Notes under the pieces: model-generated | Told to the model about the DNA's origin: nothing | Seen by the model: the letters and a program-made list of their open reading frames with translations, nothing else | Database searches by the model: none | Translations under genes and position numbers: made by a program | Source: Amphibalanus amphitrite | Lineage: Eukaryota > Arthropoda > Thecostraca > Balanomorpha > Balanidae | Assembly: GCF_019059575.1 (NCBI RefSeq) | Contig: NW_024881613.1 | Span: forward strand, 62,001 to 126,000 | DNA: 64,000 nt | Direction of reading: 5' to 3' | In this document: positions 3,039 through 55,748 of the stretch, piece by piece | Layout: each line of letters opens with the position of its first letter | How positions within the stretch are numbered: the first letter of the stretch is position 1

Positions 3039-4029
3039 TTAACCCTATTCCTGGCGGGCTCCGCCGGGACAAGAAACTGGCGGGGGGCCGATTCGGCCCC
3101 CCCCTGAGATCCCGAGAACGAAGCAAGATAGCGACAAGCGGTAAACGGCATCGGATACGCACGGCCAAGATCTACAATTTTTACAAAGGTCATTTTCAGG
3201 TCAGGTCAAAGATGACGTCACAGGGGTCGAAAAAGTCAAAATGGCGGCGCTAGATATGGAGAGTTTTTCTCGAATAACTTTCGAATTAGTCAAGATAGGA
3301 ACAAACTAAGGGCATCATCGTGATCCTCTTGTCAATCCGCATCGAATGATATATATGTTGACCTCGAAAGGTCAAGGTCAAAGGTTGACCTCAGGTCACG
3401 TGACCTCGAGGTCATCATGTATATCATTCGATGCGTCTTGACGAGCTGAACACAATGAGACCATCCACGCGTCTGTATCTTGTTCCTGTACGGAGTTATT
3501 GGCCAAAAACCTTTGGTGACCTTTGATGACGTCACATGACCTCACAGCTGCCCAACAGCAAAACAGACCTCAAGGTAGTGAAGGTTGATCGTATATGAAG
3601 TCATGTATGGTATATGGGGCCATTCCGACCCGTTTTAGTGGTAAAAACAGGGAGTTGATTTTCCCCCATTGACTTATAATGGGGAGGTCGCGAAACTGAC
3701 CTGACCTTAGGTCACCGATATCAAAATTCCGAGATATACAAATTGCACATACTGGTACCCTAACTAAAGCCTGAAGAGAAGAAATTGATCGGTCAAAAAC
3801 TCTAGCTCTGGCGTGATTGCAAACTTTTCTGAGGTAGGGTCACCAAACCGCCTCTGGTGACCTGACCTGAGGTCAGATCAACTCAAAATTTTCAGACATA
3901 TTGCGTAGAAGCCTTTTAGGAAAAGTCAGAAAATTTGAGCTTCCTAGCTCAACGCGTTTGGGAGAAATAACCAAAAAACCTCAGGGGGGGCTCCTGAGGC
4001 CCCCCCCCCCCCGCCAGGAATAGGGTTAA
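3039..4029. mobile_element. TTAA-flanked AGGTCA-rich element, subfamily A copy 1
   Basis: Left end TTAA-CCCTATTCCTGGCGG and right end CCGCCAGGAATAGGG-TTAA are inverted repeats flanked by TTAA. Just inside are G-tract/C-tract hairpins (GGGCCGATTCGGCCC at left, GGGCTCCTGAGGCCC at right). The interior holds many AGGTCA/TGACCT half-sites and no open frame of note. A near-identical copy is at 54175-55167. The TTAA target and CCC...GGG ends suggest a non-autonomous piggyBac-like element (inference). Confidence 0.85.
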
Positions 4030-5215
4030 CCCGCGCATGACTGGGGGGGCTCTACAGAGCCCCCCTCATGTTTTTCAGCAATATCTTCTAAACCGTTTGA
4101 CGGATCAACACGAAACTTGCGGTACCCTCAGAGGCATCAATTTGACATCTTGTGTTAAAATTTCAACTTTCTAGCTACCATAGTTTAGCCGGAAATGACG
4201 TCAGAGTGACGTCATGTCGGCCGATTTTCATGCCAAATACTGAAATACGGCAAACGCTCTCAAGAGCTCAGTTTTAAAGCTAGATCCATTTTCTTTGCAT
4301 GAGTGGACTACAAATACACGTAGCTATCGAACTGCTATCTCGAACTTTCGAAATTTTGAAAATTTTGAAAAATATTTATTTACAATTACAAAATAAATAT
4401 TTTTTGATTTTATTTCAAACAGTTTTTGACTTTTCGCAAAAACCGGAATATATGTGATAGAACACACACTTATGAACTACATTTGCAAGTTTTAGCCCAA
4501 TATCTGTAAAAATAGCCAAGTTATTCGCATTATTGTCAAAATTTTACAATTTTATGTTTTTCAAATCCATTTTTCAGTACGTTTTAGACGTTGTACAGCA
4601 ATATAAATGGCACCATCGTGTTCCTGAGCTCAAACTGCATCTGATAGGCACCCTTTTTATTGAAAAAATTTCATTTTCAAAATTTGACCTTTTCTGACCT
4701 GAAAGTGACCTGACCTTCGGTAAATTCAGCTGACAATGACCTCAAATGACACAGAAGACACTATTTTCTAAATCTACGAGTAAAATGGACCATAAAACAT
4801 GCGTCACGTGACCGATACATGATATACAATTTTCGTGACCTAGGATGACCTGGCCTTGACCTTAAAAATTCGAAGTAAAAGTTCGGTACCCTCAGGGTAT
4901 CTAAGGCATCCGACAAGGAGTGCGTAAACCAAAAATGAGCCTGGTTGAACCGGCGGTCCGGTGGTCAGAGCCTAAATTGTGAACTAACAAAAATGTCGAT
5001 AATTTTTACTTTGACCTGACCTGTGACGTCATCGGTTACCTTGAGGTCAATGAAAATAGGTTTCGTTCGATAGTTTTTCCAGGGCTATCAGACGCTGTTT
5101 GAATTTTGACGATCGGCCCAGTATTTTCGGAGATAGGAGGGGGGCTCTGGAGAGCCCCCCCCCCCCCCCCTAGTCACTCGCGTTATGGAAAATACCCCAG
5201 TCATGCGCGGGTTAA
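4026..5215. mobile_element. TTAA-flanked AGGTCA element, subfamily B
   Basis: Starts at the same TTAA that ends subfamily A copy 1, so the two abut with one shared target site. Ends are CCCGCGCATGACTGGGG and its reverse complement. The left hairpin is GGGGCTCTACAGAGCCCC, and the right is a matching GGGCTCTGGAGAGCCC. The right end carries a second, imperfect inner copy of the terminal repeat about 20 bases inside. No coding capacity seen. Confidence 0.85.
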
Positions 5216-8200
5216 TAACCACATCACAAACACAAAATCGAAACATCGGGATCTGAAAGAGAAACTGCAGTCATCAGGAAATGATATAAAGGTTTTTCCG
5301 CTGTTCATGTGATGCATAACAGTTACCACAAAATGTTTCGAACTGCATAGTCAAATTATTACCTACTAGCTTCATTTTCGTCAGCTCTACGTTCAGTGAA
5401 ATGAGAATAAATATGTGGAGCAGGCAATATATGGGAACATCAAACTCACGTCATGTACAGTTGACAAATTTGGCTGAAAACTGACAACATCGCTGCCCAT
5501 AACCCGGAGCGCTGCCCAGCGGAGCGCCGTAGATAATCATATATGGGCCGTTGTGTCCAGCACATTTGACCTGACCCTGAACTGGCTCTGACAGAAATAC
5601 GTCCGTCCTCTGGGTCAACCGATGCAATGCAGAGGAAGGTCTGGCGGCGACCGGACCACGGATACCTACCTCAGTGGAGTTCAGATTATCTCTCAGACTG
5701 TGCCCATAGCACCTGATGATAGAATACCTGGCAGCGCAGCTGAAGCCACGGTCAGCTTATGCGGCTGCGTTAGCTAATGGTGACGTCTTTCTCCACGGCT
5801 CGTGATGGCTCTCTGTGCCATGTTATATGATATCCCACGAACGATTAACGTCCATCCCTCGTCATCTGCGTCATTATTGTTGCTAGGAATAGAAGATAAA
5901 GGCCCTGACAAAGCAAATAATTGCATATGGCGATGTGGGGATAGGTCACGTCCTTTCACGTTCTTACCTGGTTTACCGTGTGAAATACCTACTTATTTGT
6001 GTGCAAGCCATCGCATGCTGCAGGCAGTCGTCATGAACGACCCTCGGACGTCATTCTCACTTCATGACCACGTTGTTGGGTCACAGCAAATATACGTTCT
6101 TTTTTGGGGAGCGAACTGCATCACAACTTTTATAAAATAATTTTTCAAGCGGTTAATGCACTCTTGGCAATCTAACAGCAGCTTCCATGGAGCGACGTCT
6201 AAAATGAAAACAGCCTAGAACATGGTGCTTTATATGGGGCTACATAGCAGTGCGGTTTGTTAGCGTGTCACGACCAATTGAATTTGGAGCGTCACATGTC
6301 TGATTATTGACGGCGGACTGGCGCTACAAGAAATCTCAATTATAGCTGTCGACCACCTCGAAGCTCCGGGCAGCCACGAAGGGTGACATGGCCGAATTAA
6401 TCAGCCGGTATTTGTTATGAACTGAGTGGAACATGACTAGCACTGGACGGAATTTCCGGCCTCATTTTCAAGGGCCGGATTCGAAAAGTGCTAGAAAGAT
6501 GACGTCCCAATGACACGACATTGGCTGGGGTATCCGGCCAGTCCCCATGGTCTTTTCTTTGAACGGATGTTCGTTCATAGAGGGACAAACGACAGAAACG
6601 GGAATTATTCACGAGTCTAATTGATTTTCACAGTTGGCCCAAATTTGGGGGGGGGGGGAATTTGTAGCATACGGTGCGGCGCGCTGTCTCATGTCGTATA
6701 GGACAGTCTCGTGTAGTGTAGGGGTTTCAATGTGGTACCTATGTATTGGCCTCATGTATGAACGGCCTCATATTGTATGGGGCGGCCTCATGCGGTACAA
6801 GACGGTCCCGTGTATATTATGGGACCGTCTCATGGGCGCCGCGGTGGATATCAGCCGTGAGGAGTGAGTCGGGCCTTACGACGGTAACGACAGGTCCATA
6901 GAGGTGTCACACATCAATCCTTCAGCAGCGGGCACCACCGCTGGCAGGGTACCAGACAAAAGGAGAGGTGGAATGGGTAGGCGCTCACAGATGCATTCCG
7001 ATGCTTAGAGGCGCTGCCAGACTTGAAAATAATGAGGTAAACATGCAGACGGTGACGACGTGTATAGCTGAAAATGGGTCCATGTATGTCATCTTGGCCT
7101 ATCGTCACTCAGTAACGCAGACTCATTACTGCAACTGTATTTCACTTTTTTTAATTCATTTACTACTTTTGCTTCCGCTTGTGACATAGAATAGACTGCT
7201 TTGCATAATTTAAATGACTACATGTGAGCTTAAAACAAAAGTTTGGTCGGCTGGTAAAGAAAACCTTTAGCGATAGTTCAGGACTCCTGATTTCATCTGT
7301 TTCCAGTAGCAGTCGCGCTAAGCATTACAAATGTACCATCCATTCATGTCACGAAAAGGTGCCGCGTTTTTGGCTAGGCCCTGTAAGGTAGGGCTGTCTC
7401 TCTTGTCAATCGCTGCAGGTGCGCAACGCCCTATAGTGCATTTACCGTCGTGATGAAAACTCCGCGCTATAGAAAAAGTGCCGGTCGATGATGAGGAAAC
7501 ACGAGCCCTGCATGTAGAGCTTATAGTGCACAGTCAGCGATCGGAAGTAAATTTAGCTATCGAAACTATCACAACAGAGCAGACCCATCTATAAAATGTG
7601 AGCAGAGCTAAACCACTCTTATCGTTTCTTAATCAAAAGAAAGAACGATCGATACGGAATCAATGCTGCCGACAGTTGTGCAAGTTTGCAAAGACTTAAC
7701 ATTTTTAATCGACAGCAAGCTCTTGTTATGCTTTCTGCGATAATAAGTAATATAAACTACAACAAAGTTCAACACAATAAACATTATAAGGAGGGCTAAT
7801 TAATATTGAATTAATTTACCTTTTATCTCATTTCTCTCTAATAACACTGAAATATATATTTAAAGCTATTAAACTAAATGGACACATGAAAATCACATTT
7901 TATTACCCTTCTTCTATGTTCTTCACTTTAGACAATAAAGCAAGATGTGCTGACCTTTACCAGGACAGGTTTCCAATAACTGTTGGGTGCGCATCGTTAC
8001 CCGTTTATATATTTGGACCAGTGACGTCATTACGCTGTCCCGCGGGCCCGATAGCAGACTCAGGTGCAGACTAAATCATCTCCCTGGTCGATATTAGTCT
8101 GATTAGCGCGGCCAATATAGATCACACTTTATCACGTCGGTCTTAATTGCGGCCGACATGGATGCTGCTAACAAGTAAACCGCGTGTACTATAGTGCCAC

Positions 8201-10634
8201 AATGGGTTATTGAAAACAGCCGTACTGTAACAATGGATGAGCTGTCACGGTAAAATACTGGACTTTGCTCCGAACACAGGCGCATCTCAAGCGAGCCAAA
8301 TCCGCTTGTTTATATAATGGTTGCATGGTGACCGAGACGTTCCATTAGTCGAGCAGCATAAAGGCTAATTACCAATAGGTAAAATATTAACCCACCGTCT
8401 TGGAAGGGATTGCATCGGCATTGCTGGCAGCTCAATGATGCGCGGTGTTGCCCTTGGTTTATCGAACTCATCATAGGCTGAATCTCTGCTGTATAAAATC
8501 CCAGCGAAAATTAATGATAGCTTGACAATTAGGAGTCTAACCGTGACTAACAACCTAATAAACCACTGAAGCCACAACAGTGATAAATGGTTATGTTGAC
8601 TTTGTCAAAGTTTAAAAAATTAAATAGATATTCAAAGTCCAAAGAGAATATCTTATCACTACTACCAAACACATAATTTCATGGTTCAGCAAGGCATTTA
8701 CTTTTGGTGACGTTTAACCACATATCAATCATATGTGGTGATGTTTAACCACGCATTGTCAATGGCTTTCTTAGTAGGTATCAAACGTAATCACATTCAA
8801 GCTAATGTTATCCACAAACAAAAGGCACAGAACAAATTTCGATCTCCGTCTCTTCCTCTCGAAAGTGTATTTTTAAGTCGCACTTATTCAACATAATTAC
8901 CCATGAAGACTCAGTGTTTTGATAAACTTTAGTAAAATAAAACTGAATTAAAGCATTGAACGTGCTCTCGTTTCTCGCACTTGGGTAAAATTTCGTTTAC
9001 ATTCATCTATTCTTCTCTGAAGTGTGGGGCTCGGGCGTTTCATCGACTCATGGAACGTTCCTGACGAGGTCGGGTCGCTCAGCCAAGTGACGACTGTGCG
9101 CTTCATGGTCATGTATAGTGAGCGATTATATGTGGTTAGATGCGGAACAGTGTCCGGGAAATACGGAGTGACATCATCTCGGGTTCGTTTACACTTTGCC
9201 ATACTGACCAGAAGTATAATATGACCCCAAAAATAAACAACGCATAGTTTAGTGTGACCGCCTCGAAAGTTTAAAGGGCCGCGAAGCCACCATTGCCGGG
9301 ATTATCGCATAATTTGCGCTAACAGGCTAGAGGTTGAGTGCTCTAAACTGGCCTAGTGCTAACACGAGGTGTCTGTTTACGGTGCTGAGAGTGAACGGCC
9401 ATCACCCAGCCCTTTAGGCATGTTTGCACTTCTGCTGGCTGCTCCACCTAAAACGTAGAACACTGCTGTAGAAACTTCGGCGCTAACAGCTTGCAAGGTT
9501 TTTGACGAAGCCTCATTTTGCTGGCAATAGGCAGAAACCTCATTTGGCTAGCAATAAGAAGACATTCTCATGTGATAAATTTGGTTACGCGTATATGCAC
9601 GAATAAACTTTTATGCAAGAGTTCAGCAGAATTAAACATGCAGGGACGCAAAATGATTTGAGCTGTAAACGTAGTTTAAAGATTACACTATGCATTGATC
9701 TTCATAAAATATCTGTCCAGATGGTTAAAGGTAAATGAAATTAAACCAATTGTATCATTCGGAGAACATTTATTTTTATAAAACAAAAGCAAACTAGACA
9801 CGAGCAAAGCACACACGAGCTAACATCAGTCAACCAGCATGCTGCTAATTTCCTTTTGATGTCAGTTTGCACCACGCCAAGTGACATCGCTGTAGCTCAA
9901 GCTTTTCAATGTTACTCCTGCCCGTCTGCTGTAATTGCGGCTTTACGCCTCAGCAGAGTGAGGGATTAATAGCTCCTGTCGGCCATTAGGTGAACATTTT
10001 CAGCTTCTGCCGCACGAACGGCACTGTGTAAACATTTTTCCTCTTAGTGACAGGCGCAAACCTCTCGACTGAGGTGACAGCCAAGATTCAAAGCTCATTC
10101 AGCACCAACCCGGCGCTACGCAAACGCCGTTTGAGCCTCAGCCAGCTCGCAGAGTGCGTGCTCATTTGTCTCATTCGAGGTCATTTCGGTGTCAGACGTG
10201 GTCATCTGTCGATTTAGATAGCACCTAAATGTCACCTATGACATCGAAAGTATGTTAGGCGTTATTATTGGGCTTACCTAGAGACTAAGTGGTTGAACGC
10301 TGAACGCAGCGTAATCTGTTGTCGATGATATTCTCCCTAAATTGGTATAAACGTAAAAAGCTCACATATCGATCTTTAAGCTATTGATCCTGTATAGCGC
10401 TGGATCATCCGTGGTGGACATGATGACACTATTTGGATGCGTATGGTTGTCATCCGTATCAAAAGCATATCGATGTTGTTGTCATTGAAACAAGCGATCG
10501 ACACAACTTGTCATTTGTCACGTGACGTCTGTCAGTTTGTCTGGAAGGGACTGATAAACAGAATGGCGTGTGTCGATATGATTGGGTCACATGGTCACAG
10601 TGATCATTCTTTATTGCTCACCTGATTCCAGTAA
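5216..10634. other. No supported gene
   Basis: Unique intergenic sequence with one degenerate tandem repeat (6668-6840). A diverged 35-bp direct repeat with GTTTAACCACAT is near 8706-8755. Short open frames lack domains, codon bias or splice borders. Confidence 0.5.
6668..6840. repeat. Degenerate tandem repeat, CTCATGTNGTATRGGGCGG-like
   Basis: Six or so diverged copies of a unit of about 26 bp built on GGCCTCATGTTGTATGGG, preceded by a short G run. Confidence 0.6.
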
Positions 10635-10785
10635 ACACGGAGGAGACAGCTGTGAGGCGAGACGGCTGTGACGGTAGCAGACTGTGACGGTAGACGGCTG
10701 TGACGGTAGAAAACTGTGACGATACGGCTGTGACGGTAGCACCTGTGGTGCTGGTCACACCGTGACGGTAGTGTCTGTGACACTG
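10635..10785. repeat. Tandem repeat GGCTGTGACGGTAGA
   Basis: About eight degenerate copies of a 15-19 bp unit around CTGTGACGGTAG. Confidence 0.8.
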
Positions 10786-10964
10786 GTCACCCCGCTCCCG
10801 TTGGCTGAGAGTCACAGCGTCGGACACGCACGTTCGTCGCGGACGGTGGATAATCCACAGAGACTGTCCCTTCCCCGCCGACGGCTGGCGCGCTACTGCC
10901 GCTGCCGCCGTCTGCCCGCTGCGCCGGGGACGAGACGCCCCGACGCTGCCCTGGAGCGGGGGAG

Positions 10965-11290
10965 AGGACAGGGGACAGGGGACGGAGGTGGAGGAAGGAC
11001 TGAGGACAGAAGATAGAGGGATAGAGGGTAGATGACAGAGGACAGGGGGATTGAGGGGAGGGGAGAAGAACGGAGGACAGGGGACGGAGGGATTGAAGAC
11101 TGAGGACAGGGGGATAGAGGACAGGGGATGAAGAGTTTGGAGGACTAAAGACAGAAGATAAAGGACAGAGGACAGGGGGACAGAGGATAGAGGAATAGAC
11201 GACTGAGGGACAGAGGACAGAGAACAGGGGGCAGGGGATATAGGACAGGGGAACAGAGAGACCAAAGAATCTAGGGACAGAAGATTTTCA
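10965..11290. repeat. Polypurine tract, GGACAGGGGACAGAG-like
   Basis: About 325 bases that are almost wholly A and G on the plus strand, with repeated GGACAG/AGGACAGGGG units. The 230-codon minus-strand frame rich in Ser, Pro, Leu and Val is a by-product. Confidence 0.85.
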
Positions 11291-17800: not shown

Positions 17801-18331
17801 GCTGTGGATAAATTGTTTAGTTGATATTGTTTGGTTTTTATACCATCATAATGTCGTAGTTTATTATCAGAAAATCCCAGACGAAATTTCCAGCTCACAT
17901 GTAAAACATTTATTGAAAAGGTAAGACCGATTTGTGAAAGAATTGGTAGCAATGCTTCAGGGGCGGGGGTTAAAATCTTGAGCGGGATTTAAAAAGCTTG
18001 TGGGTATATGGATAGATAAGCAATAAGCATTGATAGTAAAGTGTGTTAAACTTTAAAACATAGGGTTATTACTTATTTTCTTATGATAATTAAAGAAGCT
18101 GTATTGTATAGTTGGTGTTTATGCTCAATTATGGCTTATATCGTGCAATCCATTCAATGATTCACCTATTTCATAAACTACAGTTTTTTTAGATAATATT
18201 GACGAACCATAAAATGCATTTGAAATCAAACACTTTAACATAAATCGTCAAACGATTGCTTCCAACGAAACAATATATGCCTAGAGCCTAGAGGATCATG
18301 TTTGAACAGATTCGAGCTATTTGTCCGCAGA
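14850..18331. other. No supported gene
   Basis: AT-rich intergenic DNA apart from the CpG-rich block at 16.58-17.09 kb. The 3' part is likely the promoter or 5' UTR side of the coiled-coil gene. Confidence 0.45.
16580..17090. promoter_or_regulatory. CpG-rich patch 1.2 kb upstream of the coiled-coil gene
   Basis: CpG-dense block about 1.25 kb before the ATG at 18339. It is the best-placed candidate for that gene's promoter or 5' UTR exon, given the acceptor-like sequence ahead of the ATG. Inference only. Confidence 0.3.
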
Positions 18332-18338
18332 GCCAGCC

Positions 18339-19394
18339 ATGTCTACGCCATCGATCAACGATGAGGCGGACAGCGAGCTCCCATCCACCGAAGTGCCGAC
18401 CACGGAGTCGGAGATCAAGACGACCTCGACGGCCGGGACCGGCTCCACGGAGGACACAACGAGCGGCGCCGCCTCCGGGTCGGCCAGCACCTCCGAGTCG
18501 AGCAGCTCCGTGAAGAAGGAGTCTTCGACCACCGACGGCAGCCCCGACTCGAGCCCCACCACCACCTCGGACACCAAGGAGGCCGACGGAGGGGAGGCGG
18601 AGGAAGGAGGAGGAGGGGAGGACGAGGCGGAGGAAGCGCCGCCGCCGCCGCCGCCGAAACCCAAGCCCAAGAAGAAGTCCGCGCCGCCTCCACCGCCCGC
18701 GGGCGATGCTGGAGAGGTCGATGTCGCTGGTGACATATCGATGCAGTATGAGAAGAAGTTCAAGGACATCCTTCGCGAGAGGAGGAAGAAGGCTGAGGCG
18801 GAGCTGGCGGCAAAGAACAAGAACAAGGCGACCATCGATGAGATGAACGCCTACTACAAGGCCTGGGTGACGGCCGACTACGAAAAGCGCAAAGAGCAGC
18901 CCAAGTCGCACGAGGCGGCCAAGAAGCGGCGCCAGGACGCCGTCCGACAGAAGAAGGCCCAGGAGGCGTTCTGCACGTGGCTGCAGTACAAGAAGCAGCA
19001 GCTGAAGATGGAGAGGCGCCGGTATCGGCTGCAGCGCAAGGAGCGCCGCCAGCTGGTGCAGAAGCGGTCGCGCGCCGCCAGTGAGCGCGCCTACGAGTGC
19101 TGGCTGGCGGAGAAGCGGCGCCAGCACCGTGCCGAGGGCCGGCCGGCCGGCCACTACCCGCCCGTGGTCCACACGCGCGACATGTCCGTCCTCTACGCCA
19201 AGTCGTACAAGGCGGCGATGGAGGCGCGCGGACCACGCTGCGCCAGCGCCTCGGGCCGCCTGCAGGGAGGCAGCGAGTTCCACGACGTCGAGAACGTCTA
19301 CTGTCCCGAGCACAAGACCGAGTACCGGCTGGAGACCAAGCGGACCGCCAGCGGCAGCTGCTACCGCCTCACCAGCGTGCGCAAACTGGACTGA
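18339..19394 (+). CDS. Charged coiled-coil protein, single exon
   Basis: 351 codons with strong GC bias at third positions, unlike the surrounding AT-rich DNA. Residues 1-95 are Ser/Thr/Glu-rich and acidic. Residues 101-120 are two proline runs around a lysine cluster. Residues 135-270 are a highly charged Lys/Arg/Glu predicted coiled coil with three aromatic-x-x-W steps (Trp176, Trp214, Trp255) of the form AFCTWLQYKK and AYECWLAEKR. The last 80 residues are mixed. The F/Y-x-x-W-L-x-x-K pattern recalls microtubule- or cilium-linked coiled-coil proteins such as CCDC181, CCDC34 and MAP9, but this is a resemblance, not an assignment. The ATG (GCCAGCCATGT) has a fair Kozak context. An acceptor-like TTTGTCCGCAG ends 7 bases before it, so a 5' UTR exon may exist upstream. 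Confidence 0.72.
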   Translation: MSTPSINDEADSELPSTEVPTTESEIKTTSTAGTGSTEDTTSGAASGSASTSESSSSVKKESSTTDGSPDSSPTTTSDTKEADGGEAEEGGGGEDEAEEAPPPPPPKPKPKKKSAPPPPPAGDAGEVDVAGDISMQYEKKFKDILRERRKKAEAELAAKNKNKATIDEMNAYYKAWVTADYEKRKEQPKSHEAAKKRRQDAVRQKKAQEAFCTWLQYKKQQLKMERRRYRLQRKERRQLVQKRSRAASERAYECWLAEKRRQHRAEGRPAGHYPPVVHTRDMSVLYAKSYKAAMEARGPRCASASGRLQGGSEFHDVENVYCPEHKTEYRLETKRTASGSCYRLTSVRKLD

Positions 19395-20735: not shown

Positions 20736-21659
20736 TTAGCCCTCGCCCGTAAACGGTGTTTTGCCACCTTCGCCCATGCAGGGGGGTGGTGGTGCGACCC
20801 CCCCCCCCCCTGGCGTTTGAAAACGGAGCGTCGTAGAGCTTAGCGGAAAAACCAACGGGTTGCTCTCAACGAGATCTCGCGATTGGTGGTATATTTTTTG
20901 GTCCTAGGTCAACATTTGACCTACTTATGACCGGTCAAAGGTCAAATTTTCGGAAAAATCTCACTTTTTCAGATTTCCGCGCCGATTGCGGCAAAACGGT
21001 AAGAGATATCGACTTGAAACCTTCACTATCGTGATCCTTGATCAATTCTCTATCGTTTGGTGTGTATTTCGATGTCATAACTCTAAAAATGATGCGTTGG
21101 GAGCATTGGAAGTCTGCAAGGTCATTTGCGCATTGGGTCACGTCAGGCGTGTGACGTCACTGACCTGACCCTGACCCAAAATGGACTACAAGAAACAACC
21201 GACGATGCTTGAAATGGATAGCAAATTCGAATTCAGGGCATCAAAATACCCCGAAAAGGCATACAAGTGCAAGAAGTCATTACAGGTCAACCGAGGTCAC
21301 TGACCTGACCTTGACCTTTAGTAACCTTGAAAAGGTCAACGGACATTGTGCCAATGTCAAATCAGCCAGTCATGATTCTAAAACAATCCATCAGTGTGTC
21401 AGGTCAGTCGGCATTTATACCAATGTGAAGCAATCTCCAATTTAGCGTAAATCTGGCCGGAGGTTGTTCCCTTTATGACGTCATAACTCCGTGACCTGAC
21501 ATGACCTTGACAAAAAAATACCAAAAGTTGCGCAAAGAATGCCCCATAGGGTACTGAAAATTTGAGCAGGCTATCTGAAACGGTTCGGCGTGTAGCTAAG
21601 AAAAACCTCAGGGGGGGTTGCACCAACCCCCCCCCCCCCCCTACATTGGCGAGGGTTAG
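20736..21659. mobile_element. AGGTCA element, subfamily C copy 1
   Basis: Ends CCCTCGCCCGTAAACGG and ATTGGCGAGGG, flanked on both sides by TTAG rather than TTAA. Poly-G/poly-C hairpins lie inside both ends (right core GGTTGCACCAACC). Half-sites include runs such as TGACCTGACCTTGACC. A related copy is at 50338-51286, with a largely different middle. Confidence 0.8.
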
Positions 21660-22648
21660 ACCATTATGGTAACTGGTAGGTGGAAGGGCCCATCAACTAG
21701 CATAGATGGCGACACAAGTATGGCGCTGAGTAGCGGTGGACTTTGGAGTGGCTGAGAGGCAAAACTCATTAACTGTGCGTTAATTGGACGATAATTAGAG
21801 CCGTCCTTAATAAGCGCATCGCCGTGGACGTTTGATAAATATGCCTGATGGAAAAATGCACCAGGCTGCTACGCACTTTTTAAATTAAATCATAATTTTT
21901 ATCATGATCGCCCGGATGCCCTCCACCCGGGCGTTTTTGGCCACACCTGCCAGTTTTTTTGCGAGTGCAAAGAAAACCGCGGGGCACAGGTCCGCAAAAC
22001 TTGGTGTAGCTTATGCTACATCAATTTCGCATTGTGTGTAATATTTTTGACCCAAGGTCACATAAGGTCATGTCACCAGGTGAAGTGACCATGCCTCTAA
22101 AAAAAACTGTTATTCAGTCCTTTTTTCAGTATATATGTACCTACAATGTATGTACATACATCCCAGAAGTTTGAAACTTAGGTTGTTGCATGAGGCAATT
22201 AGTACCAACAATGTGCATGTCTCAGAATTTCGGTATCGGTGACCTAAGGTCAGGGGCCAATTTTGTGACCTCTCCATTATAAGTCAATGGGAGAAAATTG
22301 AAATGCTTTCCTTTTGGCCGTAAACACCCTTAAATGTCGGGACGCAGGGGCAGGTGAACATGACACAGAGGTGAATAATGGGCATCGAATAACAACATAT
22401 CCTAACGTATCCCGTTCTCCCCTGCGAACTGGGACGCACTATGGCGCCGTCCGGGCCGACGCCGAGTCACGTTTCCGGGCTATTCGTGATTATAAACGTG
22501 CCAGCATGTGAATTGATGCTCGTCGTAATAAATTATGATAGATACCAAGGTCACCTGAAGGTCAGGTCAAAGTCATTGACCTCAATTGACCTTGGTTCAC
22601 TTTCCAGCTTATCAAGTTTTTATGGTAGCTTTTGGAACTGATTTCGAT

Positions 22649-23806
22649 TTAACCCGCGCGGGGCTGGGGGGGTAAATTTTACCCCCCCCCCTCGCGAATT
22701 TTTGCGATATCTCAAAAACGGCGGCGCGCAGCGCCGCCAAACTTTCAGTACCTTTTCTTACATCAATTTGACACGTTCCCTGATAATTTGAGCGAAATCC
22801 GTCGGAAACTTTTTGAGAAATTGACGTTTTAGTGACGTCATGTTCACCATTTTCGCCTCAAAAACGGCAAAAGTTCAAACGCCGCTAACATCTTCATTTT
22901 TAAAGGAATCAAGACGTAACATAAAAGGTTATACGTAATTTTACTTTGTCTATCAAATGGCTATCTCGTTTTTTGAAAATTTTGGATTTTGGCCTAATTT
23001 TTTTCAAAAAACTGACTTTTTTGGGAAAATTATTATAAAATCCAAAATTTTGAGTCTATCGATAAAACCAGAATATATGTCAGAGAAGTGGTCTATGTGC
23101 ACCTACATACCAAATTTTAGAAGAATCGGTTCAAAAATGTGGGAGTTATTCAAAATTTTATGACGTCACGACACACAATTTTTTTGAAAAATGAATTTTT
23201 TGGAAGTTCTAGACCTCGTACGGAAACAAAAATAGCACCATTCGATTCGCCGTGAAAAACGGCATCAGATAGACACCTTTTTAGGCCTTAACAACCAACT
23301 TCAAAATTTGACCTCACTTGACCTGACCTTGACCTGACCTCGACCTGAAATTCATCCAGAGGTGGTCCATATCACTTATTGAGTGTGCCTATTGAATTCT
23401 ATGAGTAAAATGACCCATAAAACATGTGTCGCACATGCCCTTTTCTATATTTTGTTTTTTGGTGACCTGACCTGACCTGACCTGACCTTGACCTTGACCT
23501 CTGAATGATATTGTATGCAACGAATATTGTCTTGGTAGCCTAAGAACACGTTTTGGGCGATCAGTCTCAGTCCATGACTCCATTCTTCGGCAACTACGGT
23601 GCAAGGCCGATACTGTAGAAACTTGCAATTTGTACCCTTGACCTGACCTTGACCTTGACCTCAAACTTTAAATTAAGTACATGTTTTTAGTAGTTCGTGA
23701 TGAGAGCTTTCGATTGGCGTTTGAATTTTCCAAATCGGACCATTAGTTCGGGAGATAACAGGGGGGGTAAAATTTACCCCCCCCCCCCCAGCCCCGCGCG
23801 GGTTAA
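22649..23806. mobile_element. TTAA-flanked AGGTCA element, subfamily D
   Basis: TTAA-CCCGCGCGGGGCTGGGG and its inverse CCCCAGCCCCGCGCGGG-TTAA bound the element. Both ends have a perfect hairpin with core GTAAATTTTAC. Inside are the GGCGGCGCGCAGCGCCGCC hairpin (about 22721-22740), the CCATTATAAGTCAATGG block and long TGACC arrays. Confidence 0.85.
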
Positions 23807-24716
23807 GGACCCATTTGAACATCTGAGAAGTAATGCTGATGTCTATTTAACTTGGTTCGCTTATATATCTTATATATATAAAAATCTTCAAACATTTGAA
23901 ATAAAAAGCATAGCACAAATTACATGGATAAATCAAATGTTTAACACCGTTGACCGATTTCAAATATCTCATCAACTTTCGGAAAAAGTCGCCTCGAATA
24001 TTGTTGAACACCGCATGACGTCATAAACTGACGTAACTGTAACAGCTACCTGCTACATTGTTGACTTGAGACCAATTTAGGTCCGATATTCGGAATCAGG
24101 GCGGTGAAGAGCCCCTTATCAATTATTTTCGTTAACATCTGAGGTGGTACCGTGTACACCAGTGGTTTAGTTGGCATGAAATGACCCTGGTATAGTTTTA
24201 TAACATATTGTACCTAACTGCCATTTGATATTGCCTATTTGGGAACTTTCAGATGAACATGTTCGCATCTCGTTGCCCTGCATGCAGCATAGATATAAGG
24301 ACTAGGCATAAATTTTCACCTTTTTTACTTCCCGATAAACACTGACACAATATCGTATATCCCTCGCCGGCCGAGGGGAGGGGGCGGTGTCGCTCCCCAT
24401 GGGGTTTTTCGCGATAGCCCCGAACACACTGGCGATAGAGAGCTGAAACTTGGCATACCTAAACTTTGATTCAAGCCGGATCTTTTGACACCAACCGCAT
24501 TTTCGAGTCAGGTCAGGTCACTGACCTATGACGGCATAAGTGAACCTCTGCACGGTCTTCAGATGTCGCAACTTCGCAACGCCCTCACAGCCAGAGGAGC
24601 TTTCACAGGGAAATGAAACTTGCAGGATCTAGTATCCATTAGGAGTCTCACAACTTGTATATCTCGGATTTTTCCTTAAGGTCATATGAGGTCAGGTCAT
24701 TTTCGTAACCTCACCA

Positions 24717-25593
24717 TTAAAGGTAGTGTGCCAGCTTTCTTGGACCGTATGGAGTTAATGGCCCAGATAAGGAGAACCGGATTTTTAGAACTTATCCATA
24801 CCTTCAAAACTCATGGAAACGTCTTAAATTCTTCAAATTTTGAGTACCCCAGTGCGAAATTCGCCCCGACGGGTTGTCGGTCGTACCCCAACCACATTTC
24901 ACACCACTATGAACAATAAATGCACACACTGAAATCGCTATTACCGATATGCTCATCCAATCAAGTTTCGATAAACCCGTTCATCATCATCTCCTGCGGT
25001 TTCGAACACGCCTGTTAGGTGGCTTCTGATGCTCGTCGAGGTCGGAATTTCCAAACACGCGTGGTGCGTCGGGCCGCGCGCTCTGACTTCGGCCAATAAA
25101 AATGCGTCAGCTAATCATTGTCATTTCTGCCACTTGCGTGTGGTGAAATGGGGTCATAACTGGTCATAACTTATAAGACGGCTTTTTCATATCAATTATT
25201 TTACATAAAATCATATTTCAAACCATAAATAATGTTCGACAGCCAAATAAAAGAAACAGTACCAATACGGGTTTACAGTTTAAGGCTCGACATTGTGTTG
25301 TCTACGATTAGACAGCTGATAACTCATTCCCGTACGTCGTATGGTCGTAACACTATAATGACCTTTGCTTATTGTCACAAGTGCGCCGCATTCGCGATTG
25401 TTGCCCGACGCCTGTTTGCAGGTGAGCCCACTACAGTTGTTATACATATTTAAAAACCGATTAACTTTTAGGCGAAAAAGGCACTATTCCAGGCCCATTT
25501 TTGATTTTTTTGCGATATTAGGTAAAAACAGAAGCTTCTTATCCTAGGAAAAATAAAATGGGAAATCTTTCAAAGGTGGCACACTACCTTTAA
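24717..25593. mobile_element. TTAA-flanked MITE nested in subfamily E
   Basis: TTAA-AGGTAGTGTGCCA and TGGCACACTACCT-TTAA are inverted ends. The interior has no AGGTCA arrays, so it is a different family from its host. It shares its right TTAA with the next nested element. No coding region seen. Confidence 0.8.
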
Positions 25594-26815
25594 CCCGCGA
25601 CCGCCTGGGGGGGGGGTCGGATCCGACCCCCCCTCCGTTTTTCTTGAATAACTCATGAACCGCTTGCGCTATCAACTTGAAACTTCGCATACCTTCTCCC
25701 CCATCAATTTGACGTCTCCTGTGCAATTTTTAAGAAAAAATTTTCAAAAATTTCTGAGATATATCGATTTTAGTGATGTAACTACATGGCGTTTTCAGTC
25801 AAAAAATGATAAATGTTTGAAAAATCGCCAAAAATCGAGGTTTTAAGCAAATTGCAAATTAAGGACATGAAAAGACGCAGCTCAACGAGTTCTTTAAAAT
25901 GGCTATCTCGGATTTTCCATAACATGCGTTTTTTACCCCTAAAAATTCAAAAAACTATATTTTTTTGGAAAACAGCTAATAAAATCCAAAATTTTGAGAA
26001 TTTCCAAAAAACCGGAATATATGTTATAAAGCTCTATTAGAACATTAGATGTCCCAAATTTCAACTTTCTATCTTGATTTTTGACCCCCAAATTGTAAAA
26101 AATAGCTCCAACATGCATAGGGCATGGTGACGTCATAAGCATTTTCGCGAATTAGAGGCACTTCTGAACATCGCATGTGAATACAAATGGCACCACTAGA
26201 TTCCTGGGACAAAGCTCGTCTAGAAAAGTGCATTTTTATGTCAAAAATAAAAAGTTGAAAAATTGACTTTTTTTCTTAGCCCTCGTTTAGTTATGTATGG
26301 TATAAACGATTTTTTATGCTTTCAATGCACACTTATCACCAGCACAGTGACTTGGGGTCACATATAACCGTTACCATCGGATTTGGCGTGAAAAATAAGC
26401 CATAAAACATGTGTCGCACGCCCATGTAGCAGAAAGTGAAAACCGTGATCTTTCGTGACCTGACCTGACCTTGACCCGTACTTAGTATGACCCCTATACG
26501 CACATGGTACCTTCACTAGGTCTTTGAGGTCATTTGTGGTGAGTTTCGAGCAGCAGCTATCGATTCCGCTGTCCGTAAGCCTAATCATGCAAAACCCCTG
26601 AATTTGACCTTTGACCTGACCTTGACCCGAAAGTTGACCTCTATCTTAAAATCTTAAAAGTGCTTTGGGAAGGTCTCGTAGAGACCTTTCGAACGCCGCC
26701 TCGCGGGGCTCGATACGACCATTGGTTCTCGAGATAACAGGGGGGGGGGTCGGATCCGACCCCCCCCCCCCAGGCTGATGTGGGTACGGAAATAGCCCAG
26801 GCGGTGCCGGGTTAA
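25590..26815. mobile_element. TTAA-flanked AGGTCA element nested in subfamily E
   Basis: TTAA-CCCGCGACCGCCTGGGG at left and CCCAGGCGGTGCCGGG-TTAA at right. Both ends carry the same perfect hairpin, GGGGTCGGATCCGACCCC (about 25612-25630 and 26745-26765). A degenerate second copy of the terminal repeat (CAGGCTGATGTGGGT) lies inside the right end. It was inserted next to the MITE at 24717-25593 at a shared TTAA. Confidence 0.85.
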
Positions 26816-27711
26816 GTCAATGGGGAAAAATGAAAACTGCAATTCTGGCGTAGGGAACGATCTCCAACTACCTCAAGCATACAGAATCGTGATTTGATGT
26901 ACTCTTTGCAAGATAAGAAGCGTCATTTTTGCAATGTTGACCTTACGTGACGTCATTTATGACGTCATCAAGGTCATATTAGTTTTTCGTCAATAACTTC
27001 CGATCAAATTGAGCTAGCGAGTGGGGAAAGCTACCAATGGACTCAGGAAGACCTGCCGAATCGAATGATAGCGACATGACCTCTTTCGACGAGCTTCGTG
27101 ACCTGGGGGCGCTGACCTGACCGTGACCTGAGGTCAACACCCTAAGTTGACCTCACCCAAAAAAAGTATGTATATCATTCGACGTGGCTGAGAGATGCGA
27201 GCACGATGCTGCCAAGATCGCGGCTCTGCGGCCGTTTTTTTGCGAACTTATTGACCAAAAACTGAACCATACCTTGGGGCACTTGACCTGACCTCAGAGG
27301 TCACCGGTTGACCTAGGACCTTAAAATCAGGTATCAATCTCTGCGTCTCGTAACGGCGCACACGCTCGTTTTTCCGCGACGCGCTAGCTCCACCAGGGGC
27401 GAAACGGCGAGGGGGTCGTACCCCCCCCCCCCCCCCCCCGCCCTCGGCCGGCGCGTATGTAGAAAACCAATAGGTCCGACGAGGGATATATTTCTCGCGC
27501 CCCTCTGCAGTTCCATTCAGTGGCACGCATCACACCGACCAAAGTGGGGAAACGATGCTGCCTAGCCAATCACCAGTCGGCGCATGGCCGGAAACAATAC
27601 TCACGGTGATCAGGGCGCCCTGCTCTCCTCGAGCGGGCTTGTGGCCACAAATAACATTACCCGGCGCCTATACCGGGAATCGGAGGCGCCCGCTGCGCAG
27701 AACGGATTGTG

Positions 27712-27752
27712 GATGGTGCTGGTGGTGGTGGTGGTAGTGGTGGTGCTTCGGC
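27712..27752. repeat. (TGG)n microsatellite
   Basis: About 12 TGG/TAG/TGC triplets. Confidence 0.85.
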
Positions 27753-29676: not shown

Positions 29677-52392
<22,716 letters not shown>

Positions 52393-52400
52393 GTCCGTAG

Positions 52401-52690
52401 ACCTGGAACACAGCGGATGGAGTGGTTTAGCTATATCGAGCTGAAACGCGGCGAAATGGAGAGGGTCAGCTGCATCGACCTGAAACACAGCGAATGTGAA
52501 GTCAGCTAGCTTAAATCGAGCTGAAGCATAACGGGCACAGCGTGTTAGCAGTACGAACTGAAAGTCTGAAACACAGCGAAAGGAGATGATAAGGTGCGTC
52601 AAACTCAAACACAGAGAATTTGGAGTAGATTAGGTTACACATATCGATCTGAAACACGGTTGATGTTGTGGGTTGGATGGCTTGAACTGA
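52401..52690. repeat. Degenerate minisatellite abutting coding exon 1
   Basis: Repeated CTGAAACACAGCGAA-like units about 40-47 bp apart (52403, 52440, 52480, 52521, 52567, 52650). Read on the minus strand, each gives TTCGCTGTGTTTCAG, a splice-acceptor-like string. The unit nearest the exon supplies the acceptor used for exon 1 in my model. Confidence 0.7.
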
Positions 52691-52794
52691 AATAGTCAGC
52701 GGAATGAAGTGGATTATTTCATACGGTGACCGAAATCCTCGCATTTGATTCCATGCTTGTCGCATTAGCGTTCATAAATCATTGTTGGTAAAGC

Positions 52795-53299
52795 TTAAAG
52801 GGACTATCCCACCTTCTAAAATGTTGTTAAAACCAGTTAAATTGTGTCCGACTTTATAGATTGGATGACCAGGAACACGGTTCTGGCATTTATTTTTCAT
52901 TAAACATCTTAGGCTTCCCATATTCCAAACACAAACTTTCAAATATGTGACGTCACAGCCCAAAATTACCTCCTTCCCCAGGCCGCATTACTGTCATAAA
53001 GCTGATTCTTTTTACTCTGTAGGCACCACAACATAGTTCAGACCAAGTTTTAAGCGATTTTTCAACGAACAAACCCATTTAAATCAGAATGACTAAACGA
53101 GGTGACGTCACACTAACGGTCGCTCCATGTTGAAGATAGGGCCTTGTACAAGGCCCATTTTCAAATGAAGGGAACGAATTTCTTCAACACCAAGAGGCCG
53201 CGGGGGTTGCAACCTAGATAGATAGTGGTTTCTGAACCTCGCCGCAAACTTGGCTATCTCAACTCAAACCCCATGTTAAAGGTGGGATAGTCCCTTTAA
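52795..53299. mobile_element. TTAA-flanked MITE with AGGGACTATCC ends
   Basis: TTAA-AGGGACTATCCCACCTT and its inverse, ending TTAA. About 500 bp, non-coding. The ends resemble those of the element at 61804-62300, which differs in the middle of the terminal repeat. Confidence 0.78.
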
Positions 53300-53640
53300 G
53301 TGTAAAAATGGAACTATGAAACAAATAAATTACATATTTTAAGTTGCTATGACTGCAAGTTAATGTATGTATTGTTCTTTGAAGCATTGTCCTGGAGCTT
53401 AGTTTAGCTGAAGAGAAACGATTATTTATGGAGGTTGGCACATGAAATGGTGAATGACAGATGCCAGATGACAAATAAAATCAGATGACAATGACTAATG
53501 AATCTTCGTGAGCTGTTTAAATAAGTGAGCTGATCAGAACTGGCTGACAATTTATAGCTCGATTGACAAATCCTTCAGTCATGCGGTTTTCAAAGCTGGT
53601 GGAAGTTATGCCTGCTTACACAAAAAAATAGCCCACGATT

Positions 53641-55748
53641 AGGGGAAGCCGGGGGAAGCCCGGGCGCGGGGGAAGCCCGGCCACCCCGTTTCCGGCTAAA
53701 TTATTCACAATAAGATGCTCAACTGTTTGTCCTTTCAGCGTGGCAGCTAAGGTAACGCCAGCAAAAAAGTTAAGGCTGACAAAAATTGCATATTGTTAAA
53801 GTTATAGCGCAAAAATGATATTTTAAGGGTTTTTAGCTAAAAAGTGAGATATCTTGCACTGTTAATGTTATACCATACAGTACTAATATTTATACGAATG
53901 CTATGAAAGGATCGTTTAAGTGTTTGTAGTGAGGGGTGATGAGGCAGGCTGGCCTAAGTATGACATTGTTTCCAAATATCGCTGTTCTAAAATAAAAATT
54001 AGCACATTGGGGTAACCCCGGGCGAGTGGCCAAGCTTACCCCCAACCGAGAGCAATGCCACTAAACCACTGTTTTCCATGAGATAATAGGTACTGAGCAG
54101 GTTTGGTTTACACCTAGATCAAAGATGAATTTCGACAATAAACATGTTATCATAGACAAAGCCAGTCATGTCACTTAACCCTATTCCTGGCGGGCTCCGC
54201 CGGGACAAGAAACTGGCGGGGGGGGGGCCGATTCGGCCCTCCCCCCTGAGATCTCGAGAACGAAGCAAGATAGCGACAAGCGGTAAACGGCATCGGATAC
54301 GCACAGCCAAGATCTACAATTTTTACTGAGGTCATTTTCAGGTCAGGTCAAAGATGACGTCACAGGGGTCGAAAAAGTCAAAATGGCGGCGCTAGATATG
54401 GAGAGAGTTTTTTCGAATAACTTTCGAATTAGTCAAGATAGGAACAAACTAAGGGCATCATCGTGATCCTCTCGTCAATCCGCATCGAATGATATATATG
54501 TTGACCTCGAAAGGTCAAGGTCAAAGGTTGACCTCAGGTCACGTGACCTCGAGGTCATCATGTATATCATTCGATGCGTCTTGACGAGCTGAACACAATG
54601 AGACCATCCACGCGTCTGTATCTTGTTCCTGTACGGAGTTATTGGCCAAAAACCTTTGGTGACCTTTGATGACGTCACATGACCTCACAGCTGCCCAACA
54701 GCAAAACAGACCTCAAGGTAGTGAAGGTTGATCGTATATGAAGTCATGTATGGTATATGGGGCCATTCCGACCCGTTTTAGTGGTAAAAACAGGGAGTTG
54801 ATTTTTCCCCCATTGACTTATAATGGGGAGGTCGCGAAACTGACCTGACCTTAGGTCACCGATATCAAAATTCCGAGATATACAAATTGCACATACTGGT
54901 ACCCTAACTAAAGCCTGAAGAGAAGAAATTGATCGGTCAAAAACTCTAGCTCTGGCGTGATTACAAACTTTTTTGAGGTAGGGTCACCAAACCGCCTCTG
55001 GTGACCTGACCTGAGGTCAGATCAACTCAAAATTTTCAGACCTGTTGCGTAGAAGCCTTTTAGGAAAAGTCACAAAATTTGAGCTTCCTAGCTCAACGCG
55101 TTTGGGAGAAATAACCAAAAAACCTCAGGGGGGGCTCCTGAGGCCCCCCCGCCAGGAATAGGGTTAAGGTCAACTAGGGTCAAACTACGTTTTTGCAGAT
55201 AACGCGACAGACAATGAAGCTAGAGCTTCAAAAATGGTGTCGTTGTGTTCTTCTTCATCAGCCGAGTCGAATGATATGCAATATGATGCATTAAGGTAAA
55301 AAGAAAAATAAATTTTAAGGAATTTTGAAATACACATTTTCTGTCAATTTTGCATCAGGATTTTCATCGACCTGTACTGTATATGCAGTAGACGTTAGCT
55401 AAAATACCAGTAGTAACATAAACTCTAAGATGTCCAGGGCTAATCAGTACCTTAATATTTCACTTTCCGTTAATATTTGGAAAACACATAATGGTTTCAT
55501 CAACTCGTTGTAAAGCGCTGGGGAGGTGGCCGGCGTTACCCCTATGCCGGGCTTACCCCAGAAAAATCAACACTTTTTTAAAACTCGATTTTCTCAACCT
55601 TATACTTATTCCACGAAACCGAATTTTTGGGAAAACACGGCCAATGAACTTAGCTAGCTAGCAGGATATCAACATTTTATACAGCACGTATGGTATGTAA
55701 TAAAAATGAAAAAGAGCTTACTATGCCGGGCTTCCCCCGGCTTCCCCT
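53641..55748. mobile_element. Inverted-repeat element hosting subfamily A copy 2
   Basis: AGGGGAAGCCGGGGGAAGCC at left mirrors GGCTTCCCCCGGCTTCCCCT at right. Variants of the motif (GGCGAGTGGCCAAGCTTACC, GCCGGCGTTACCCC, GCCGGGCTTACCCC) recur inside. Without the nested copy it is about 1.1 kb. No coding region seen. Confidence 0.7.
54175..55167. mobile_element. AGGTCA element, subfamily A copy 2
   Basis: TTAA-flanked, nearly the same as 3039-4029 and in the same orientation. It is inserted into the element at 53641-55748. Confidence 0.87.

Follow-up and report, generated by a model that had tools for sequence, protein, structure and literature searches.

Lattice-spaced AGGTCA arrays as predicted transposase-docking sites in non-autonomous piggyBac elements of Amphibalanus amphitrite

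The TTAA-target elements in the window (the whole stretch of 64,000 nucleotides analysed here) are probably non-autonomous members of a piggyBac clade which are moved in trans by the transposases of their relatives. Judged from sequence, their dense AGGTCA arrays would be docking sites for these transposases, perhaps phased with nucleosomes. AGGTCA occurs 231 times in the window against 29.4 expected (sd 5.5, maximum 44; 100 dinucleotide shuffles of the 64 kb). Of these, 179 lie inside 14.6 kb of listed elements, with a density of 12.2 per kb within the elements and 1.05 per kb elsewhere in the window. Part of the AGGTCA outside falls in extra fragments near 21.9–22.6 kb and 24.4–24.8 kb. No Rfam or tRNA content is found in the window DNA. 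The elements and fragments are as follows.

3039..4029, + strand: A1, ends TTAACCCTATTCCTGGCGGG; 18 half-sites in five clusters centred at 161, 349, 491, 667 and 821
4026..5215, + strand: B1, ends CCCGCGCATGACTGGGG; 11 half-sites, right half; two TGACGTCA at lattice point 1 of the left end
20736..21659, + strand: H2, TTAG on both flanks; 14 half-sites (count span 20737-21666); related to the 674-aa autonomous element
21900..22345, unstranded: fragment akin to families E and G, rich in half-sites
22649..23806, + strand: C1; 16 half-sites, right half; on the left, TGACGTCA close to lattice points 1 and 3
24440..24800, unstranded: fragment rich in half-sites
25590..26815, + strand: D1; 8 half-sites, right part
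26816..27400, unstranded: fragment K1; 12 half-sites
34560..35745, + strand: E1, ends CCTTCGCCCCAGTGG / CCCGCGCCCCAGTGG; 22 half-sites in six clusters; apparently derived from the 666-aa autonomous lineage
35742..36623, + strand: F1, ends CCCTATTAGTGGCAGG; 0 half-sites
40043..41150, + strand: G1; 20 half-sites (count span 40043-41180); right end lost or rearranged
45880..46837, + strand: I1; 9 half-sites; degraded ends
47060..47460, unstranded: J1, a family G fragment that keeps its right end; 3 half-sites
48678..49856, + strand: E2, 93.9% identical to E1; 20 half-sites; TTAA flanks lost
50338..51286, + strand: H1, ends CCCTCGCCCGTAAACGG / CCCTCGCCCATGTAGG; 7 AGGTCA
51353..52240, + strand: F2, 98.2% identical to F1; 0 half-sites; right tip mutated
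54175..55167, + strand: A2, 97.3% identical to A1; 18 half-sites

Apart from the two unnamed fragments, 15 TTAA-type elements or fragments are found, and 13 of them are rich in AGGTCA. The pattern that the sequence-only reading described for at least thirteen copies is thus real, and it extends beyond what that reading saw. These 13 carry 3–22 half-sites each (per-element shuffle means 0.18–0.61, maximum 4), the weakest being J1, where 3 are found and shuffles reach 2 at most. TTAA is intact on both sides in 8 of the 15 (A1, B1, C1, D1, E1, F1, H1 and A2), one has TTAG on both sides, and six are degraded or partial. CCC...GGG ends are seen in the sequence, with G-tract/C-tract inverted repeats adjoining the tips. 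The same reading had ascribed one set of features to all copies; the ends and G-tract repeats stand, while the half-sites are not general, being absent from both members of family F and from the left 0.66–0.87 kb of B1, C1 and D1. The first ~110 bp of F1 resemble an end of family A. With up to 2 mismatches allowed, the genome holds 2615+2597 occurrences of the A1 end itself.

Judged by their alignments, families E and H are non-autonomous (MITE-like) piggyBac elements with autonomous partners in the same genome. Two autonomous copies (C431 388-5119 and C33 333-5055) have a 666-aa frame, ends CCTTCGCCCTGGTGG / CCCGCGCCCTGGTG and TTAA on both sides. The region 490-1186 of E1 is 71.6% identical to the right end of these partners, and its regions 154-210 and 284-379 match their left end at 79–80% with nearly equal offsets. 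Two end stretches of H1 match both ends of the 674-aa element with 79.8% and 87.4% identity. Families A, G and I align with subterminal parts of the 666-aa partner; the matches of B1, C1 and D1 to the two autonomous elements are limited to short stretches, and for family F no alignment match to them is found. The half-site arrays sit in the long subterminal ends of the autonomous partners. The domain PF13843 (DDE_Tnp_1_7) is detected in the 666-aa and 674-aa proteins with E values of 1e-59 and 2.4e-69. In a phmmer search the 666-aa protein matches Trichoplusia ni (T. ni) piggyBac 6x67 at E 1.3e-56, and 6x67 is also the top PDB match of its AlphaFold2 model (Foldseek, E 6.6e-31), in which the CRD portion has low confidence. 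Four residues, D287, D316, D400 and D499, do not vary across an alignment of 11 proteins and are candidates for the three catalytic Asp of piggyBac. The terminal CCY...RGG inverted ends are those of the piggyBac superfamily, and TTAA flanks both sides of 24/24 distinct A-ended copies, TTAA being part of the search word. The earlier proposals of piggyBac-like ends with a TTAA target and of non-coding elements related to each other as a superfamily are borne out. The autonomous DDE_Tnp_1_7 relative with the same ends, for which that reading suggested a search, exists as the 666-aa element for E and the 674-aa element for H.

Nested piggyBac elements are observed inside a D-like copy at another locus and inside K-like copies elsewhere. 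A 604-aa piggyBac with ends CCCATTAGTGCCC is ruled out as mobiliser, since those of its copies that adjoin window-like sequence have inserted into elements of the D-like and K-like types (L022, L023), and a 588-aa piggyBac (L010) is likewise an insertion and ruled out. Kolobok elements also target TTAA; a Kolobok origin is ruled out by the piggyBac tips and transposase.

Dense half-site arrays are confined to one transposase clade among the 12 bounded elements, as read from their sequences. The comparison covers 19 loci of 116 PF13843 places, 12 of them with bounds, those of L062, L065 and L071 having imperfect TTAA; the printed frame of L062 shows no CRD. The three bounded elements of the one clade carry 33, 13 and 12 half-sites (7.0, 3.3 and 3.0 per kb), while the nine of other clades carry 0–4 (≤1.5 per kb). 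Identity to the 666-aa protein is 36–39% within the clade and 19–22% for the others, in a transposase tree interpreted without support values. The 666-aa element stands out strongly, and the 674-aa element has only about twice the density of the richest outsiders. The array-rich clade has a cysteine-rich domain (CRD) of the T. ni piggyBac type.

By sequence comparison, half-sites are also kept across diverged families well above background. In cross-family alignments (those above 88% identity excluded, both directions counted), 352/451 aligned half-site occurrences are identical, against 4,983/19,694 for other 6-mers. When half-sites are masked before alignment, 53/118 are identical versus 229/1,454 in six pairs, a total that retains the 0/18 given by reverse-complemented A1 (A1rc) against the partner ends. 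The enrichment therefore holds after correction for shared ancestry. The alignment to autonomous partners took 20/24 distinct A-ended copies; the other 4 form subfamily A', with 74–79% identity to A1. Each A' copy has 17 half-sites on the lattice, and just 11–12 of the 18 half-sites of A1 are still in place. Over all 24 A-ended copies the half-site contrast is 0.0298 versus 0.0557, and 6.2% of circular shifts are as low.

The AGGTCA clusters follow a ~165-bp lattice measured from the tip, which is lattice point zero and is itself without a half-site. Clusters are found at ~165, 330, 495 bp and onward, with steps of ~190 bp in family H; the fitted period is 166.5 or 192 by lineage, the fit for family H allowing GGGTCA besides AGGTCA. 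The arrays extend ~0.7 kb into the ends, and their TGAC-core sites are mostly AGGTCA/TGACCT, with TGACGTCA in some families. In the window, A2 and E2 left aside, half-site pairs at 151-180, 316-345, 480-509 and 645-674 bp number 161, 96, 48 and 24, against 9, 4, 8 and 5 between the lattice steps (65-94, 233-262, 400-429 and 560-589 bp). In the same bins, 30 other loci (123,920 bp, 341 sites, with the overlaps of an earlier 38-locus set removed) give 283, 140, 83 and 51 pairs against 15, 12, 30 and 28. The genome-wide tests use one off-lattice bin each. Same-orientation AGGTCA pairs number 572,367 at 151-180 bp, 69,655 at 233-262 bp and 315,554 at 316-345 bp, with 7,208, 6,288 and 5,915 in reversed-letter controls. 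TTAACCC is followed by AGGTCA 94,230 times at 150-179 bp and 2,607 times at 232-261 bp (controls 665 and 450), and a tip is followed by TGACGTCA 21,044 times on the lattice versus 394 times off it (controls 40 and 66). Among the listed genome places the tip-to-cluster distance is tight over many end types.

The sequence-only reading took the arrays to exist for nuclear receptors. In that case host receptors (FTZ-F1/NR5A, ERR, HR3 etc.) would occupy them, the transposon would gain germline expression or accessibility, and its copies would spread response elements. AGGTCA is indeed the canonical nuclear-receptor half-site, and the DR4 (17) and DR0 (11) neighbour pairs are compatible with receptors, so that incidental receptor binding is possible. 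Spacing as a whole gives a mixed picture. The commonest neighbour step is one of 5 bp (28 pairs; a 10-bp step accounts for 17), in which half-sites overlap by one base that two receptor domains could hardly share; ER1 is found 12 times, and the classical IR1 (2) and DR1 (1) are rare. The extended form TCAAGGTCA, which had been read as a receptor-type site, is enriched in the window (19 versus a shuffle mean of 0.51, maximum 3), but 13/19 are GGTCAAGGTCA, which is two overlapping half-sites, and the extended form is thus mostly an overlap effect. In addition, TGACGTCA occupies the same first lattice position as AGGTCA, and the arrays are kept in non-coding copies without a promoter to drive. 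The receptor purpose is not supported, because the arrays are placed in autonomous transposon ends and are dense in one clade only, and we consider it unlikely. For the AGGTCA clusters, docking of a transposase appears more likely than receptor switches. An architectural or silencing factor of the host that binds the arrays and phases nucleosomes would suit the nucleosome-scale period. It would also suit the base composition of 40 inter-cluster units, where A/T runs are rarer in mid-unit (0.103 vs 0.144, rotation p 0.0015) and GC is slightly higher (0.424 vs 0.391, p 0.0165) in a mid-unit interval picked after the unit scores were seen. It would leave the clade contrast and the array placement in autonomous ends unexplained, and is highly improbable.

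The lattice could also be a mere relic of an ancestral tandem duplication of a ~165–190 bp subterminal unit, with a functionless spacing. Tandem units of ~187 bp are recognisable in family H and the 674-aa element, so that duplication contributes to the periodicity of H. The lineage-dependent period would fit such a relic, and the net indels that separate families mostly stay inside the range of a random walk and show no clear compensation. Once half-sites are masked, a few unit pairs reach the edge of the shuffled range (1/6 in G1, score 21 with a shuffled maximum of 21; 1/3 in H2, 21 with a maximum of 20), while successive units of A, B, C and E score within it (one unit pair each in B and C). 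These masked scores rule out recent tandem duplication as the sole source of the lattice outside family H. Furthermore, a lattice whose point zero is the half-site-free tip, and whose tip-to-cluster spacing is tight across end types, speaks against a mere relic, which we regard as quite improbable.

Under the preferred transposase-docking reading, full-length relatives in the same genome would supply the transposases that mobilise the non-coding copies in trans, and the long ends would offer clusters of TGAC cores as docking sites. With lower confidence, the period being of nucleosome scale, nucleosomes may sit between the clusters, and the tip and docking clusters may stay exposed in linkers. 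Selection would act via transposition, since copies with good arrays jump, and not via host gene regulation. It is conceivable, though we put it forward only tentatively, that this amounts to a chromatin-aware end: docking clusters one nucleosome apart with the cleavable tip as zero would allow efficient mobilisation from chromatin, and the lineage would so have multiplied to tens of thousands of ends, sowing a 165-bp AGGTCA lattice through the genome. The AGGTCA arrays of B1, C1 and D1 are in one half only, an observation that counts against docking. Family F has similar tips and no half-sites, so either another transposase is in use or arrays are not required. Also against docking, the CRD sites known from piggyBac elements are at most tens of bp away from the tip, and the arrays here lie 165–660 bp in.

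The spacing logic of subterminal repeats, which are common in DNA transposons, is poorly known. Here, in one genome, tip-to-half-site matches that obey a single tight distance rule number in the tens of thousands. Its autonomous partners with open frames and its half-site-poor piggyBac clades make the idea of nucleosome-built ends directly testable. AGGTCA counts in such a genome would reflect transposon ends and not hormone-response networks.

A literature search joining AGGTCA half-sites or nuclear receptors with piggyBac MITEs gave no relevant match. The motif and residue match of the 666-aa protein to the T. ni CRD is partial, because the core of the latter is TGCGT/ACGCA and not TGACC, and because Y558 is not conserved. 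By alignment, its last six zinc ligands keep the T. ni piggyBac spacing, and two of the three DNA-reading residues named in the excerpted text of PMC7351741 have R/K aligned to them. Among known systems, the Daphnia Pokey and mPok elements are similar as crustacean piggyBac elements with MITEs (PMC3849761, PMC4912750, in part). The coral CMITEs of Acropora are TTAA-targeting, piggyBac-related and have a non-coding interior conserved between families beyond expectation; they differ in being ~100 bp long with a single 75-base internal block, AGGTCA and TGACC are absent from the main text, and its excerpts show no lattice (PMC2872659). Arrays of subterminal repeats are noted for many transposon systems, and piggyBat of Myotis has subterminal CRD-binding palindromes that regulate its activity; its CRD, however, has another fold, its sites are near the tip, and the word 'nucleosome' is absent from the main text (PMC11707139). 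T. ni piggyBac (6x67/6x68) shares TTAA, CCY tips, PF13843, a cross-brace-type CRD pattern and asymmetric ends. According to the excerpted text, its CRD acts as a dimer on a subterminal repeat that contains TGAC and is bound by it, with the site TGACGCATG and a similar TGACGTACG, and the repeat lies inside minimal ends of 35 and 63 bp (PMC7351741), whereas the arrays described here run over ~0.7 kb with a cluster every ~165 bp.

The window contains 231 copies of the half-site AGGTCA/TGACCT, where dinucleotide shuffles predict 29.4, and 19 copies of TCAAGGTCA, where they predict 0.51. Fifteen elements or fragments (labelled A to K) were delimited by the terminal words TTAACC/GGTTAA and by self-comparison of the window. 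Intact TTAA is found on both sides of 8 of the 15, H2 is flanked by TTAG on both sides, and the other six (E2, F2, G1, I1, J1 and K1) are incomplete or decayed. The listed elements span 14,646 bp and contain 179 of the 231 half-sites. The half-site-dense plan proposed in the sequence-only reading holds for 13 of the 15; it fails for F1 and F2, which have zero half-sites, and for the left 0.66–0.87 kb of B1, C1 and D1. The tip of family F (35742–36623, 51353–52240) resembles that of family A, yet half-sites are absent; this family may use another transposase, or may show that the arrays are dispensable. A1/B1 (3039–5215) and E1/F1 (34560–36623) stand tip to tip with one TTAA in common, suggesting that insertions have repeatedly hit the TTAA flanking an existing element. 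The window also holds a 362-aa open frame with many charged residues (18306–19394), probably a host gene exon, with weak sub-cut-off Pfam matches only (CCDC34, E 0.015; Rieske_4, E 0.024), and a 194-bp AG dinucleotide microsatellite (43407–43600) adjoining a 44-bp tandem array (43186–43359).

Half-sites in these elements form clusters on a lattice with the element tip as point zero. With second copies included, their distances peak at 160–170, 320–340, 490–520 and ~660 bp and are nearly empty around 80 and 240–270 bp. The same spacing is observed in 30 overlap-free loci elsewhere (123,920 bp, 341 sites; 38 loci in an earlier set that included overlaps), a non-random sample picked for family-A tips and transposases.

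Half-site pairs by distance: window without A2 and E2; 30 loci elsewhere
65–94 bp: 9; 15
151–180 bp: 161; 283
233–262 bp: 4; 12
316–345 bp: 96; 140
400–429 bp: 8; 30
480–509 bp: 48; 83
560–589 bp: 5; 28
645–674 bp: 24; 51

Family H is best fitted by a period of 192 bp, and families A, B, C, D, E, G and I by one of 166.5 bp; absent clusters leave gaps of about twice the period (342, 344 and 372 bp; 412 bp in family H). When the window members of the seven families with the shorter period are divided into bins, three of ten being lattice bins, these hold 77 of 129 TGACC and 19 of 29 TGACG words; for comparison, TTGCA has 3 of its 22 occurrences there and the reversed word ACTGG 4 of its 7.

Across the whole assembly (G000, 807.55 Mb, 2,644 contigs; the window is C116:62001–126000), same-orientation AGGTCA pairs, measured start to start, number 572,367 at 151–180, 69,655 at 233–262 and 315,554 at 316–345 bp (reversed-letter controls 7,208, 6,288 and 5,915). 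TTAACCC followed by AGGTCA gives 35,222 + 59,008 matches at 150–179 bp (control 665) and 1,121 + 1,486 at 232–261 bp (control 450). The forward and reverse counts are unequal, the likely reason being that tips are counted in one and half-sites in the other, so these matches do not equal the number of elements. With TGACGTCA as the second word, the two distances give 21,044 against 394 (controls 40 and 66). Many different tip types occur among the matches listed (100 per search); thus the lattice is not confined to one family. Satellites supply some off-lattice AGGTCA pairs among the matches listed, and the off-lattice counts are inflated by a tandem repeat with AGGTCAGCCGGGCGT:
C1:826691–827138, tandem repeat
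C1:1312110–1312557, tandem repeat
C1:1773674–1774045, tandem repeat

The 20-base family A tip has 2,615 + 2,597 genome-wide matches with at most 2 mismatches, compared with 1 and 0 for its reversed letters, and most tips among the 100 matches listed are paired ~970–1,000 bp apart. TTAA is present on both sides of 24 distinct A-ended copies, the search word itself containing TTAA. Four of them form a subfamily, A', 74–79% identical to A1; family A is young, since pairs among the remaining 20 show a median identity of 0.984.

With half-sites masked, successive units between clusters are within the shuffled range in A, B, C and E, and at its edge in one of six unit pairs in G1 and one of three in H2; the H1 units are clearly duplicated (score 50, shuffled maximum 21). 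Across families, 352 of 451 aligned half-sites are identical, against 4,983 of 19,694 other 6-mers and 525 of 1,862 permuted 6-mers. When half-sites are masked before alignment, so that they cannot anchor it, the figures are 53 of 118 against 229 of 1,454, one badly aligned pair of six (0/18) included. The half-site density and the conserved body first read from sequence alone are both borne out, the latter across diverged copies. CCCCCC is conserved on par with half-sites (103/134), so the G-tracts are constrained too. Each A' copy has 17 half-sites on the lattice, with only 11–12 of A1's 18 in place, as would be seen with site turnover under constraint. Among the 20 young A copies the mismatch rate is 0.0014 in half-sites and 0.0104 otherwise; an equally low rate occurs in 3.2% of circular shifts (6.2% with all 24 copies, where the contrast is weaker), and the difference is no more than suggestive.

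The PF13843 transposase profile matches 116 places genome-wide. The kinship with piggyBac, earlier read from ends and target site, now has its autonomous relatives, as two PF13843 lineages carry ends matching window families:
C33 333–5055, 666-aa lineage, both ends bounded
C431 388–5119, 666-aa lineage, both ends bounded
C257, 666-aa lineage, single end seen
C527, 674-aa lineage
C1173, 674-aa lineage, second copy

The 666-aa lineage is the partner of family E. Its tips CCTTCGCCCTGGTGG and CCCGCGCCCTGGTG resemble the asymmetric E1 tips, its last 695 bp are 71.6% identical to E1 490–1186, and 156–212 and 286–381 of its other end match E1 154–210 and 284–379 at 79–80%. These subterminal regions are also matched by G1, A1 and I1 (longer stretches ~68–85%). 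H1 and H2 match both ends of the 674-aa lineage, with main stretches of 76–87%. With either partner, B1, C1 and D1 have no more than stretches of 34–57 bp in common, and F1 has none. Sequence comparison links the 666-aa protein to T. ni piggyBac (PDB 6x67; E 1.3e-56), and 6x67 is also the best structural match of its predicted model (E 6.6e-31, TM 0.80 by target length; mean pLDDT 67.8, C-terminal domain poorly predicted). The left end of the 674-aa element (L066 115–950) carries roughly four units of ~187 bp; every unit holds a GGTCA-type run and TGACGTCA, and the end is a visible intermediate of array growth through tandem duplication. At L022 and L023 (604-aa frames) and L010 (588-aa), piggyBac is inserted at an internal TTAA of D-like or K-like elements; these half-site elements thus serve other piggyBac families as insertion sites.

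A midpoint-rooted tree covering 19 transposase loci, drawn without support values, places the half-site-rich L066, L067 and L074 in one clade with L064, whose ends were not located. Identity to the 666-aa protein is 36–39% for members of this clade and 19–22% for the seven other proteins aligned. The clade's bounded elements carry 33, 13 and 12 half-sites (7.0, 3.3 and 3.0 per kb), against 0–4 (at most 1.5 per kb) in nine bounded elements of other clades. The rich-clade C-terminus reads C-x2-C ... C-x2-C-x4-C-x2-H-x4 or x7-C-x2-C, and the last six ligands of the 666-aa protein are spaced as in T. ni piggyBac (alignment read by eye). The Cys-rich tail is arranged differently in 8 of the 9 bounded elements of other clades, and is absent from the one L062 frame examined. 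The cysteine-rich domain (CRD) of T. ni piggyBac binds as a dimer to a palindromic internal repeat, its site being TGACGCATG, with TGACGTACG described as similar, and reads DNA through Y558, R567 and K569 (PMC7351741). Counted on the alignment, the 666-aa protein has R, R and K at these positions. The T. ni CRD core is reportedly TGCGT/ACGCA, which counts against a match of the TGAC sites with that domain.

We propose that transposase dimers would cut at the tip and load via their CRDs onto TGAC clusters at lattice points 1–4 of each end, and that non-autonomous copies keeping the array would be mobilised, the arrays being selected through transposition. The nucleosome repeat is close to ~165 bp, and the similar lattice step suggests that clusters and tip would lie in linkers, phased by nucleosomes. 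The middle of the units between clusters has fewer A/T runs (p 0.0015) and slightly higher GC (p 0.0165), in a mid-window that was selected post hoc. As for receptor binding, the commonest neighbouring half-sites overlap by one base (28 pairs), followed by DR4 (same direction, 4 apart; 17), TGACCT-N-AGGTCA (12) and DR0 (11), with two IR1 pairs and one DR1. These spacings differ from the usual nuclear-receptor grammar; the DR4 and DR0 pairs could be receptor sites.

Among open-licence PMC articles, in titles and abstract starts of the matches listed, we found no piggyBac family with nucleosome-scale subterminal or AGGTCA arrays. Judged against that literature, we class the window elements as putative new families and a further variant within the piggyBac MITEs rather than as a separate type of transposon. 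The nearest description found is that of the coral CMITEs, piggyBac MITEs whose conserved interior has no assigned role (PMC2872659).
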